Shown: positions 11,325-21,214 of the stretch, one piece after another | Position numbering within the stretch: the first letter of the stretch is position 1 | Layout of the letters: the number at the start of each line of letters is the position of its first letter | DNA from: a virus | Reading direction: 5' to 3' (one strand) | DNA length: 23,486 nucleotides | IMG/VR virus record: IMGVR_UViG_3300023184_007165 | Location: 1 to 23,486 of that record | Program-made: the position numbers and the translations under genes | Notes under the pieces: model-generated | Told to the model about the DNA's origin: nothing | Seen by the model: only the letters and a program-made list of their open reading frames with translations | Database searches by the model: none

Positions 11325-13697
11325 TTAAATCTTTTCTTCTTCTGGGTTTGCATTTTTTGAAGCACCAGTTTTCTTTCTAATAGCTTGCATTATTACATTT
11401 AATACATCTTGTGGATGGTCATTTAATTCTTTGTCTGTGAATCTTAAAATAATCCAACCATTAGATGCAAGTTCGATGTCTCTTCTCTTATCTTTGGCGA
11501 TTTTTTCAGGATTGTTATGCCAAATTTCACCATCAGCTTCAATTCCAATTTTAAGATTAGGAATAGCTGCATCAAGTTGGTAATCCATTGTTGGTCCTGC
11601 AGCATATTGTGCATATAATGGATAAGGCATATTTAAAGAAAGCATCAAACCATAAAGTTTCTTTTCGATAGAAGTAAACATTTGAGGTGCTGGTTTTTCA
11701 AATTTTTTCTTAGCAAATACCTCTCTTGTTTCTGGAGCTGATTGAATATAATGCATTTCTTGTTGAGCATAATAGTTAACAGGAGTACAGTTATCTCCTC
11801 CAAATGGCTGTGGAATAATAATGCCACCAAAACCATCATATTCTTCAGGTAATGAGCCTAAATAAGCACGACCAGAAACGGGAGTTAAGCTTCTAATAAA
11901 ACCTTCATGCGCTGCTGATTTAAATCTTCTTCCAGCAATCCTCATGTTCATAAGTTTTGAAGAAGAATTTAATCTTTCTGTGTAGATATCATTTACGATG
12001 GTTGATGCTAATCTATAGTTATCAGTTGGACTTGATGCCATAGGCATTCCACCCATTGGAGGAGCTGCCATCCCACCTGGAGGCGGTGGTGTTAATCCCA
12101 TACCTGGAGCACCCATTCCCATATCGCCACCAGCACCAGGAGCACCAAAACCTTGACCAGTTACGTCACCAGATTGAAAGCCAGTATTTAAATCAGTATT
12201 TCCAAGGGCTGGATTTTGAACAAAGTTAGCTCCTTGCTCAAATCTTAACCTTTCAATTTCTTGGTCTGGGTCTAATCCAAATGCTTCAATAAGAGTCATA
12301 TTGGAAATAACTCCATTGGTATTAGCAGTAACCATCATTTGAAGTTTGCCAGTATCATCTCTTAATTGAAGATCATCGAATTTGATAGTAGGAAAGATGA
12401 TTTCTTCTTGCCCTCTTTCACCTTCAATAGTAAAACCATTCCATTCAGCTACTGGTTTGAAAACACATTCCTCAACCCATCTTGCTACTTCTCTTCTGAA
12501 TGTCTCTAGTCTTTGAGCCATTGCAAGAAGACCAACTTGAGCATTACCATATGTTGGACCTTCACCATTAAGAAGAGCTTTATTAAGCATAACACCATCT
12601 AAGATTTCTTGGTCAATAAGCTCATATTCATTAGTTAATTGAAGTACTTTTCCAGAAGCTCCAACGTAATCAAAGTCAAAAGCATGGTGAGTGACAAGAG
12701 TAAGGTTAGGGTCGTTAGCAATTGCAGCCAATTCATCTTGGACAGAGTCGAGGTCTTCTTGTGATGCTGGTCTTTGATCATTTCCTACTTTGACAACTTT
12801 AACAGGGAGGATATGTCTTTCTGCAACAATCCATTGAGATTGTCTTAACTTATCTTTATATGCTAATGTAGGGAACAATGGACGAATCAAAGGAGTTCCA
12901 TAGTCTTCCCATGGATTTGAACCATGCTTAAAGTGATGAATAGAAATCGGATTAAGCTTGATTGGCTCTCCTCTGATTATAAGTTTCTTTACACTATCAG
13001 GAATAGCATCATAAAGTTCTTTTGGTTGTCTTTCGTTAACAATCTTCATTTCTTCAGGAGATGGACGATAGACATACATTCCTGGTTGATCAATAAGACC
13101 TGGAGATTTTAAAACTGCATCAGGGTTAAGAATAGAAACGGATCTCCAAGAAGCTCCATCATGTTTACATTCTTCATTCTTCTCTTCATCCCAGTTAGAG
13201 CCATGGCAATGTTCACAGTCAATAGAGAGAAGTACAAAAGCATCTCCAAGTAAGTGATAAACCTTGGATATTTCTGGCAACCATTTTTGAAAGTTAAGTC
13301 TTTGAGTTAGTTTTTCAAAATAGTCTTTAACATATGAAGATGAACATTCTAACTTCCATCCAGAGAAAGGATAGTTGGTATAGAAGTTGATTGCAGCAGA
13401 GATTTTTGGTTCGTTATTTCTCCACCAGTTAGCCCATAAATAAACTTCACGGCGAGCATTTGGAATCTGGAATGAAGAAGGAGTAAGAAATGGTGAGTAA
13501 AAGTTAGGTGCGGTGGTCATTGTATTATTACCACCGGATGCAGTTTTTTGATTTACTGAAGGTCCTAAGCCTGAAGTAATCCTTGAGTTTGCATATTGTC
13601 TGTCAAACTCAGCTGAACCTAATACTCTTTCTCCAGTTACGTTATGTGCTGCTGTTTTAAGAACTTTGGCTAATGAAGGCGAATCTTTGGAACTCAT
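11325..13697 (-). CDS. Portal protein with C-terminal DUF559/Vsr-like nuclease domain
   Basis: The 790-aa protein has a phage portal core (about 65-500): an N-terminal wing with W-A-N-W-W-R-N-N-E-P (88-97), Y-x-L-L-G-D-A-F (147-154), I-H-H-F-K-H-G-S (253-260) and a long clip/stem region to about 490. C161-x2-C164...C177-x-H179 in the wing may bind zinc. A Gly/Pro/Met-rich linker (505-555) and a helical segment follow. Residues 673-775 match DUF559, a Vsr-like PD-(D/E)xK endonuclease fold: D709, then E720-A-D722-G, H727, basic D-K-R-R-D (736-740) and G-W-I-I-L-R-F (747-753). The acidic site looks intact. The portal forms the dodecameric DNA gate bound by terminase. Shine-Dalgarno is poor; the ATG follows the upstream stop by 22 bases. 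Confidence 0.85.
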   Translation of the reverse strand: MSSKDSPSLAKVLKTAAHNVTGERVLGSAEFDRQYANSRITSGLGPSVNQKTASGGNNTMTTAPNFYSPFLTPSSFQIPNARREVYLWANWWRNNEPKISAAINFYTNYPFSGWKLECSSSYVKDYFEKLTQRLNFQKWLPEISKVYHLLGDAFVLLSIDCEHCHGSNWDEEKNEECKHDGASWRSVSILNPDAVLKSPGLIDQPGMYVYRPSPEEMKIVNERQPKELYDAIPDSVKKLIIRGEPIKLNPISIHHFKHGSNPWEDYGTPLIRPLFPTLAYKDKLRQSQWIVAERHILPVKVVKVGNDQRPASQEDLDSVQDELAAIANDPNLTLVTHHAFDFDYVGASGKVLQLTNEYELIDQEILDGVMLNKALLNGEGPTYGNAQVGLLAMAQRLETFRREVARWVEECVFKPVAEWNGFTIEGERGQEEIIFPTIKFDDLQLRDDTGKLQMMVTANTNGVISNMTLIEAFGLDPDQEIERLRFEQGANFVQNPALGNTDLNTGFQSGDVTGQGFGAPGAGGDMGMGAPGMGLTPPPPGGMAAPPMGGMPMASSPTDNYRLASTIVNDIYTERLNSSSKLMNMRIAGRRFKSAAHEGFIRSLTPVSGRAYLGSLPEEYDGFGGIIIPQPFGGDNCTPVNYYAQQEMHYIQSAPETREVFAKKKFEKPAPQMFTSIEKKLYGLMLSLNMPYPLYAQYAAGPTMDYQLDAAIPNLKIGIEADGEIWHNNPEKIAKDKRRDIELASNGWIILRFTDKELNDHPQDVLNVIMQAIRKKTGASKNANPEEEKI

Positions 13698-18735: not shown

Positions 18736-19041
18736 TTATTGTTTACTTTTACGCAAAACTAAATCATCACCCTTGTGGATTAAAAAATCTCCAATTTCTA
18801 TATCTAGTTTTTTAAATGTGTCTTTATTTGCTTCTACAACATATTTGACATTGTTAGATTTAGGATAGACACTTTTTGTTTGCTCTGCTTCCATATCTTT
18901 AAAATCAACAATTTTAAAATTATTATCTAAAAATGCTAATGTCAAAGGGAAAGAAACATTTTTATTCCAGAATGAATAATTTCCTATTTCTGGAAAGATA
19001 AAAAATGCAGTTTCAAATTCTTCTAAAGGCTCTGCATGCAT
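18736..19041 (-). CDS. DUF192-domain protein lacking an upstream start
   Basis: From the first ATG the protein is 101 aa, but the recognisable DUF192 domain begins earlier in the same frame: residues encoded at 19042-19116 include F-S-V-R-F-V-A-D and L-S-K-G-L directly before this Met, which is the M of the conserved G-L-M. Other family marks are F-F-I-F-P, F-W-N-K-N-V-S-F-P-L and Y-V-V-E-A-N...I-G-D. No ATG, GTG, TTG, CTG or ATT codon lies between 19041 and the TGA at 19117, which ends the in-phase upstream gene. Either the domain is made by reading through that TGA, or only this shortened form is made (AAAGG stands close before the ATG). DUF192 is a small beta-rich domain of unknown role. 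Confidence 0.6.
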   Translation of the reverse strand: MHAEPLEEFETAFFIFPEIGNYSFWNKNVSFPLTLAFLDNNFKIVDFKDMEAEQTKSVYPKSNNVKYVVEANKDTFKKLDIEIGDFLIHKGDDLVLRKSKQ

Positions 19042-19116
19042 TAAACCTTTAGAAAGAGTTGCATTATTATCAGCTACAAATCTGACAGAAAACTTTCCAT
19101 CAAAATCATCTGTGAG

Positions 19117-19119
19117 TCA
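19117..19119 (-). other. In-frame TGA separating winged-helix and DUF192 domains
   Basis: The upstream 159-aa frame and the DUF192 frame are the same reading frame, interrupted only by this TGA (context AAA-ACT-TGA-CTC). With TGA decoded the product would be one 286-aa protein. TGA is otherwise used in this window only by the 31-aa ORF; every other complete gene ends in TAA, or twice TAG. Confidence 0.7.
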
Positions 19120-19596
19120 AGTTTTTGTAAACTTACTCTTTTTGCTTGCAACTTTAACTTCTTTAGCTGCATTTAAATCAAACTTATCTTTCTTTCTAGC
19201 TTTTCTAAACTCATTAACAGGATCTTTCAAGTAAGCATCTCTCAATGCAACTCTTCCTCTGTCTGTTAAAGTTACTGATCTACCGTGACCAGAAATAAGT
19301 CCAGCAGTCTTAAGTGCTAAAAGTGAATTGTCATCAATATTTTTTGGAACGACAAATGTTTTCCCATCTTTGATGTTATTTACAATATTAGCAGCAGTGA
19401 CAATTTCGTCTTGATTTTGCTCAATAATCTTAAGCAAATCGATATGTCTTTGGCTTACTGTAACTTTTGCTTCTCTTGTGTTAGTACTGCCACCAAGTAA
19501 CATAAGTTGGATATCAGATAAACCTAATCCTTCCATTGAAACTTTGTCGTTGTTGTCATCATTCCAGTTATTTAATGATTGAATTGGTAAAGGCAT
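19117..19596 (-). CDS. Winged-helix-like protein, 159 aa, upstream of DUF192
   Basis: Residues about 45-122 look like a winged helix: helices around Q-R-H-I-D-L-L-K (49-56) and A-A-N-I-V-N-N (68-74), then L-L-A-L-K-T-A-G-L-I-S (92-102), a wing G-R-S-V-T-L-T (105-111) and R-G-R-V-A-L-R-D (113-120). This fits a MarR/PadR-like fold, but no specific family is recognised. A basic linker (130-159, K-V-A-S-K-K-S-K) ends at the TGA. AGGAG stands 7 bases before the ATG and overlaps the upstream TAG stop. It may be an assembly protein using a winged helix for protein or DNA contact rather than a regulator, given its place among head genes (inference). Confidence 0.6.
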   Translation of the reverse strand: MPLPIQSLNNWNDDNNDKVSMEGLGLSDIQLMLLGGSTNTREAKVTVSQRHIDLLKIIEQNQDEIVTAANIVNNIKDGKTFVVPKNIDDNSLLALKTAGLISGHGRSVTLTDRGRVALRDAYLKDPVNEFRKARKKDKFDLNAAKEVKVASKKSKFTKT

Positions 19597-20098: not shown

Positions 20099-21214
20099 TT
20101 ATTTTCCTGCTAATTCTTTTTTACAAACATCTAATGCATTAACAATAGTCTTGTCCATATCATAATATTTATAGCTTCCTAATCTTCCACCAATAATAAG
20201 ATTCTTTAGTCCATCTGCTTCAATGCGATATTTTTCATATCTTTCATTATTTAAATAATCATTAATAGGATAATAAGGTTCTTCAGAAAAGTTTTTGTCA
20301 TAAGATTTAGAATATTCGAAAGTAATATAATCCTTTTCTGACTTACTAAAAGTGAAATATTTATGCTGTATTATTCTTGTCCATTCAATATTTAATGAAG
20401 GATATGTAACGAGAGCAGTTCCTTGAAAATCTGAGTTAATTTCATAGTGTTTATGAGTTAAAGTTCTGTATTCTAAATCACCAAATCTATATTCAAAAAG
20501 TTTATCTATAGGGCCAGTATAAACAACTTTTTCTGCTAATGAATTAAAATAAGATTTATCACTGAAATAATCACAATCTAAATTAACTTCAATATCTTTT
20601 AATAGGTTTTTAAATATAGCTGTGTATCCATCAATTGGCACACCTTCATAAATATCAGCATCAGAATAATATCTATCGTTATAGTTTAATCTGAGTGGTA
20701 TTCTTTGTGCGATTGATGCTGGTAAGTGTTTTGGATCTCTTCCCCATTGCTTTTTTGTATATCCATAAAAAAACATTTCGTACAAAGTTTTACCCATAGT
20801 GCTTAAGCAATATTCTTCAAAGTTTTGTGGGTTTGGAATATTTATTTTATCTTGATTGATTTTATTGATTGCATTTTGTGGATTATATGCATCAGGCCAT
20901 ACTTGTTGTATTGTGCTTAAGTTGATTGGCAGAGAATATATTGTGTTATTGATATTTGCTTTATTTCTCAATGTAAAATTATTGAAAGTTGCAAATTGAT
21001 TTATATAATCCCAGACATATTTTAAAGAAGTATGAAAAATGTGAGGACCATATTTGTGAATGTGATAGTCTTCATATGGTTCTGAATAACAGTTTCCACC
21101 TATATGATTTCTTTTGTCAATTACTAATACTTTTTTATTAAGTTTTTTTGCTTCATATGCAAAAATGGAGCCGAATAAACCGGCTCCAACAACAAGATAA
21201 TCATATTTTGGCAT
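20099..21214 (-). CDS. glf: UDP-galactopyranose mutase
   Basis: The 371-aa protein is a full-length UDP-galactopyranose mutase, the flavoenzyme that interconverts UDP-Galp and UDP-Galf, the donor of galactofuranose for surface glycans. Visible are the FAD-binding G10-A-G12-L-F-G15 with a downstream I-D-K-R, the conserved G-P-H-I-F-H (56-61), K-K-Q-W157-G, R171, Y182-Y183, R280 and the C-terminal G-G-R344-L-G-S-Y-K-Y-Y-D-M-D. All key residues look present and the length is typical of bacterial enzymes. It is cytosolic. It sits between structural genes with an 18-base gap upstream and no clear Shine-Dalgarno: a metabolic cargo gene embedded in the late operon, probably acquired from a bacterium (inference). 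Confidence 0.95.
   Translation of the reverse strand: MPKYDYLVVGAGLFGSIFAYEAKKLNKKVLVIDKRNHIGGNCYSEPYEDYHIHKYGPHIFHTSLKYVWDYINQFATFNNFTLRNKANINNTIYSLPINLSTIQQVWPDAYNPQNAINKINQDKINIPNPQNFEEYCLSTMGKTLYEMFFYGYTKKQWGRDPKHLPASIAQRIPLRLNYNDRYYSDADIYEGVPIDGYTAIFKNLLKDIEVNLDCDYFSDKSYFNSLAEKVVYTGPIDKLFEYRFGDLEYRTLTHKHYEINSDFQGTALVTYPSLNIEWTRIIQHKYFTFSKSEKDYITFEYSKSYDKNFSEEPYYPINDYLNNERYEKYRIEADGLKNLIIGGRLGSYKYYDMDKTIVNALDVCKKELAGK

Follow-up and report, generated by a model that had tools for sequence, protein, structure and literature searches.

How is a gene decoded when its two domains lie in one reading frame with a stop codon between them? The DNA analysed here, a virus record of 23,486 bases that we call the window, raises this question on its minus strand at 18736-19596, where a 159-codon frame ends at a UGA and a DUF192 frame follows in phase. 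A preliminary description of the locus had left four options: programmed readthrough, a natural suppressor tRNA, a recent nonsense mutation and a sequencing error.

Two frames around one UGA

Translation of the minus strand gave 159 codons (19120-19596), a TGA (19117-19119) and 126 codons closed by TAA (18736-19116), bearing out that the two frames are in phase with a single TGA between them. The upstream frame, which ends at the UGA, encodes the presumed major product of 159 aa, and the UGA is the presumed readthrough codon. A CTC codon (19114-19116) stands right behind it. The first ATG past the UGA is that of the GLM motif (19039-19041), within the conserved DUF192 core. When we printed the window's codons, no ATG, GTG or TTG was found from the TGA to this ATG, and the earlier claim that the DUF192 frame has no usable start ahead of GLM was confirmed.

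The downstream frame matches the Pfam family DUF192 (PF02643; E 1.4e-18, 67.3 bits against a curated cutoff of 27), and the match starts at residue 14, ahead of the ATG at residue 26. We then predicted the fold of the fusion with AlphaFold, using 33 of 39 nonredundant sequences (model m6b1c7c353402; mean pLDDT 65.5, pTM 0.41). The model places a strand at residues 168-175 (19072-19095), between the UGA at residue 160 and the ATG at residue 186. Two DUF192 structures align over this stretch: 3pjy_A from residue 160 on (Z 16.6, rmsd 2.2, 112 residues) and 3m7a from residue 158 on (Z 15.2). The start of the Pfam match, the model and the fold alignment thus agree with the preliminary description that the first DUF192 strand is encoded before the only ATG. 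Since this strand lies between the UGA and the ATG, a product started at the ATG would miss it. The two known structures have the same fold as the extension; in the phage gene, a stop codon stands between the domain and the presumed winged-helix protein to which it would be fused. The function of the DUF192 family is unknown.

The identity of the upstream domain rests on less. Its sequence matches a winged-helix family only weakly (PF24409, E 0.036, below cutoff), so the winged-helix assignment made earlier has little support from sequence. Comparison of model residues 42-133 with MexR and other MarR-type chains gave Z scores of 7.3 and below, a range common by chance, and confidence in the model is moderate. 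A MarR-like winged helix is therefore a predicted identity, supported by fold comparison only.

The UGA and the codon behind it in relatives

Relatives were collected from IMG/VR by searching with both frames and with alignments, some of them on records of 316 and 358 kb; two of the searches took in 80 of 106 and 80 of 105 relatives. For a census, we ran two profile HMMs over 237 loci, which overlap and often lie several to a contig, and we counted junctions as distinct 150-base strings rather than as contigs. DUF192 followed in frame behind TGA-CTN at 221 of the 237 loci (130 CTC, 89 CTG, and 2 CTA). The rest comprised one TGA-CTC cut off by the contig end, six loci whose contig ends before the stop is reached, six with separate genes, and three further loci, all on one contig, that have separate genes and an upstream protein under the HMM threshold. 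The 221 in-frame loci contain 64 distinct junctions, with TGA in every one and CTC (40), CTG (23) or CTA (1) as the next codon. The fusions are as little as about 52% identical to that of the window.

A sense codon or another stop at the junction was not found at any of the 221 in-frame loci of the IMG/VR census. The comparison with homologues that had been proposed as a check therefore turned up neither TGG nor any other sense codon in the in-frame clade; a true gene boundary does occur, but only in outgroups. Because the window is one metagenomic record, a sequencing error or a recent change of TGG to TGA could have been suspected. The same UGA in the same place in 64 distinct related junctions, spread over many IMG/VR records, excludes both, and we give them next to no credence.

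The bases behind the UGA are conserved as well. Of the 64 junctions, 63 have C or G at the fourfold site behind UGA-CT, and A follows UGA-CU(C/G) in 55 of 59. These leucine codons are rare in the genomes concerned: the window has 53 CTC and 3 CTG among 540 Leu codons (10% together), and two long records have 523 of 7,384 (7%) and 678 of 8,229 (8%). By eye, the tree labels indicate several independent switches from C to G, one to A and none to T. Only 2 of the 90 TGA-ended open reading frames (ORFs) in the two long records have CT next, and both are the winged-helix/DUF192 gene. Given the use of rare codons at 63 of 64 junctions, the repeated switches and the restriction of CT to this gene, we read this, on sequence comparison alone, as selection acting on the nucleotides UGA-CU(C/G). 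The context is conserved at the junctions; that it is leaky on a bacterial ribosome is only inferred.

Is the stretch past the UGA translated in the upstream frame? Codon tables and dN/dS were computed from 39 nonredundant sequences of 60 complete ORFs (the final set held 63), dN/dS over 175 sequence pairs at 75 to 95% nucleotide identity. Codons +1 to +8 are loose (dN/dS 0.68). From +9 to +28, up to GLM, dN/dS is 0.10, the same value as in the upstream domain, and it is 0.16 in the rest of DUF192. All 39 sequences have R at +16 and A at +19, although the codons for these residues vary. The linker of 23 to 29 codons changes in length by whole codons in 60 of 60 ORFs. Up to the GLM leucine, 53 of the 60 linkers are free of ATG, GTG and TTG; the other 7 have one, at linker codon 21 only. 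By these comparisons, the stretch past the UGA is under purifying selection at the protein level in a frame that has no usable start.

We found little else at the junction that could act in cis. RNAalifold, applied to the whole set, gave no clade-wide RNA structure past the UGA. Single sequences and some subclades fold into small, nonhomologous hairpins there; in one hairpin folding set, 5 of the 10 stretches (L053, L104, L067, L016, and L057) began a few bases past the UGA. Against a protein-preserving control, the segment just past the UGA was the third lowest of 51 (mean z −0.92), and the lowest (z −1.85) lay 16 to 20 codons further on. Contrary to expectation, synonymous conservation was not exceptional at the UGA, which ranked 27 of 287, 37 of 291 and 16 of 289 windows. 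Signs of a cis element other than UGA-CU(C/G) are thus weak.

Around the ATG of GLM, a separate observation can be made. In the window (minus strand, 19021-19053) and in relatives, AAAGG before this ATG and CCUUU after it could pair and thereby perhaps hide an internal start. When the flanking helix was tested for covariation, only one pair was informative (G-C in 2 of 44 sequences and A-T in 33 of 44), too slight a signal to call. All 44 distinct sequences have TTA or TTG as the second Leu codon of the GLM region.

Proposed readthrough, rival readings and the reader of the UGA

Of the four original options, programmed readthrough is the one supported: the UGA is conserved, CU(C/G) follows it, and coding constraint continues behind it without a start. 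That the gene is decoded in this way, with UGA-CU(C/G) as the signal, we consider very probable; readthrough itself is inferred, as there are no protein, reporter or ribosome-profiling data. UGA-C is reportedly, after Poole, Brown and Tate in 1995, the weakest stop context in E. coli. In our proposal, most ribosomes would terminate at the UGA and release the 159-aa winged-helix protein. Because UGA-CU(C/G) would be a poor termination signal, a near-cognate tRNA, most likely host tRNA-Trp, would decode the UGA on a minority of ribosomes and yield a minor protein of 286 aa with DUF192 at its C terminus. Such a device would supply DUF192 at a low dose, tethered to the winged-helix protein. Leaky termination and its level, Trp as the inserted amino acid, the two products, their tethering and the role of the fusion are all inferences. 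The proposal also offers a reason for the shortened DUF192 protein that gene-calling programs would report at this locus.

The main rival is termination followed by reinitiation: ribosomes would terminate at the UGA and begin anew at the CUC or CUG, making a separate DUF192 protein as a relic of the coupling found in outgroups. There, in L159 and L227, the two genes are indeed directly coupled with overlapping stop and start, and in the in-frame clade the CUC/CUG codon lies exactly behind the stop. Anti-Shine-Dalgarno pairing of −5 kcal/mol or stronger occurs in about 6 of 31 distinct upstream stretches (0.19). Ahead of the CUS codon, the mean pairing is −2.7 kcal/mol, compared with −1.1 for random codons and −7.0 for the true start, the upstream ATG, which has Shine-Dalgarno-like pairing in 27 of 27 distinct upstream stretches; weak as it is, it leaves some room for a restart. 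However, CUC outnumbers CUG at the junctions, and to our knowledge CUC is not an efficient start codon. Neither ATG, GTG nor TTG has taken its place in any of the 64 junctions, though the change would be easy. The linker's insertions and deletions keep to the upstream frame without exception, which reinitiation does not require, and the outgroup genes are not in one shared frame. We therefore regard reinitiation as improbable.

Readthrough by a near-cognate tRNA also has to be distinguished from decoding of UGA as a sense codon by a suppressor tRNA or through reassignment, in the phage or in its host. The preliminary description had TGA as nearly unused as a stop. This is true of the window, where it ends 1 of 19 ORFs, and not of the relatives: in two long records with the in-frame arrangement, of 316 to 358 kb, it ends 35 of 264 (G001) and 55 of 308 (G002) of the ORFs that reach 100 aa. 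With 90 of 572 ORFs ending in this way, UGA is an ordinary stop in both, which speaks against genome-wide reassignment (code 4). We then looked for a tRNA that could read it. The window has no tRNA, and ARAGORN found no UCA, CUA or UUA anticodon among the 4 and 9 tRNAs of G001 and G002. These long records were scanned for ORFs and tRNAs in 20-kb pieces, and features spanning a border may have been missed. An extra tRNA-like Rfam match in G001 has, by eye, a loop without these three anticodons, and one in G003 reads as a Thr tRNA. RF00005 was run on 13 records, 10 of them with the in-frame arrangement; tRNA matches occurred in 4 of these 10, and all the records may be fragments. The suggested phage suppressor tRNA was thus not seen in the window or in the two longest in-frame records.

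What can be set in favor of suppression comes from G004 (146,772 bases; loci L184, L168, and L338), a record with separate genes. Besides a tmRNA, it carries a UCA-anticodon tRNA of 72 bases and a 163-codon frame that contains an RF-1 domain. TGA nonetheless ends 30 of its 137 ORFs. The three features together are possibly a phage termination or rescue toolkit. Since the host is unknown, a host suppressor cannot be excluded; altogether, suppression or reassignment keeps only a small chance. With UGA an ordinary stop and no suppressor tRNA in the long relatives, the likely reader is a near-cognate tRNA of the host, itself unidentified. Where UGA is read in E. coli, Trp is mostly inserted, according to the accessible part of one source (PMC11126739).

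Selenocysteine insertion, hopping over the stop and a compensating pair of frameshifts are slighter possibilities still. UGA followed by C is also a common selenocysteine context, and to that extent the junction fits. But RNAalifold gave no consensus hairpin directly past the UGA (no dedicated SECIS model was used), the residue would fall in the linker, and no relative has Cys, or any sense codon, at this position. As for hopping, inspection of the junctions by eye found no matching codon pair shared by the clade.

Outgroups, genome setting and known systems

According to the preliminary description, readthrough would be refuted by homologues whose DUF192 gene is separate and has its own start. 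Such homologues exist, but only in two outgroup lineages. In the first (L158, L159, and L227), the genes are adjacent and in different frames, DUF192 starts from an ATG of its own at the first strand, and the upstream protein is longer; the junction is an ATGA overlap in L159 and L227 and reads TAAACATG in L158. The second comprises L258, L273, and L280 (on records of 167, 347, and 30 kb). There, TAA closes the upstream gene (HMM E 1e-31 to 1e-34) in 3 of 3, a gene of roughly 560 to 600 codons intervenes (the two genes are 1.6 to 1.8 kb apart), and DUF192 again has its own ATG. A DUF192 tree groups the in-frame rows in one clade (support 92/93); branches near the root are long, and its exact position is unsure. 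Because both outgroups lie outside the clade that lost the start codon, they do not refute readthrough. Only loci without a DUF192 start have the presumed leaky stop.

The separate gene is presumably the older arrangement, which the readthrough device appears to have replaced. The loci form a natural series from separate genes to a readthrough fusion, and if the proposal is true, this lineage records how a separate gene becomes a readthrough extension. In 5 of 6 outgroup sequences, Shine-Dalgarno pairing at the DUF192 ATG is slight (−2.2 to +1.7 kcal/mol), the exception being L159 (−6.1). From this weak pairing, set against the mean for the clade's upstream gene, we infer that low DUF192 output is an older trait, kept low by readthrough.

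The window also encodes a terminase (PHROG 2, E 1.7e-19) and a portal protein (Portal_Mu, E 1.3e-9). Its major capsid protein shares 48% identity, across the full length, with that of Bacillus phage G (Donellivirus). The gene thus lies among the packaging and head genes of a tailed phage, and the lineage is, as judged from the capsid protein sequence, related to phage G. A search of 50 kb of phage G, a stretch that includes its capsid genes, detected no homologue of either domain. Proximity to the terminase and the winged helix are the grounds for a guess that the fusion acts in DNA packaging or head assembly, and the locus may hint at a role of DUF192 in DNA packaging or the assembly of virions. 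Taken at its fullest, our explanation has UGA-CU(C/G) as a standalone bacterial readthrough signal with no obligatory RNA structure, a low-dose fusion device of a jumbo lineage related to phage G, born when a separate downstream gene lost its start. To this wider claim we would give an even chance and no more.

Among RNA viruses and eukaryotes, there are well-documented cases of conserved programmed readthrough. The nearest likeness is the coat/A1 pair of Qbeta, also a bacterial virus, in which a leaky UGA gives a minor, C-terminally extended form of a major protein; the UGA is read by tRNA-Trp, as stated in the part of the source available (PMC7764779). Qbeta, however, is an RNA phage and the protein its coat, whereas here large double-stranded DNA phages carry a winged-helix protein with DUF192 and a strict CU(C/G) past the UGA. 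The eukaryotic UGA-CUA(G) motif, so far as the accessible text describes it (PMC9841425), is likewise a short local signal of UGA and CU. Its next base is A rather than C or G, and any mechanistic likeness is only hypothetical because the ribosome and release factors are bacterial here. In E. coli reporters, termination is less accurate with G after the stop and more accurate with T; C is not singled out in the portion of that report at hand (PMC11126739). Frameshifting in lambda G/GT and P2 E/E+E′ resembles our case in producing a short and a C-terminally extended protein from one start in a morphogenesis region (PMC5009743 and PMC3091744, both available in part), but there the frame changes, and here a stop would be read as sense in an unchanged frame.

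The literature that we searched on tailed DNA phages describes frameshifting, and readthrough is hardly described in such phages. Open-access titles and abstracts contained no report of readthrough in a tailed DNA phage or of this gene; most subscription papers and bioRxiv preprints were outside this scope. What would be new is a Qbeta-A1-like readthrough in a tailed DNA phage lineage, with a third base unlike that of the eukaryotic UGA-CUA, insofar as sequences alone can tell. Being short and strictly conserved, the signal lends itself to direct transfer into a dual reporter in the laboratory.

Annotated phages had little resembling the locus. A nucleotide search against them gave no match, nor did the winged-helix protein; the DUF192 frame had distant matches only, in 7 records of cyanophages and gut phages. 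In a scan of species genomes, 44 stretches matched the winged-helix protein, and none was accepted as a relative. A search with the winged-helix protein of L158 returned only itself.

Three other genes on the minus strand of the window deserve mention. Within the packaging and head cluster lies a gene for UDP-galactopyranose mutase (20099-21214; GLF, E 6e-62). The portal-like protein (11325-13697) resembles DUF559 and MTES_1575 endonuclease-like domains at its C terminus (E 4e-8 and 7.6e-9). Beyond the capsid gene, 1452-2816 encodes a fusion of a HAD hydrolase and a nucleotidyltransferase (E 2e-27 and 2e-13).
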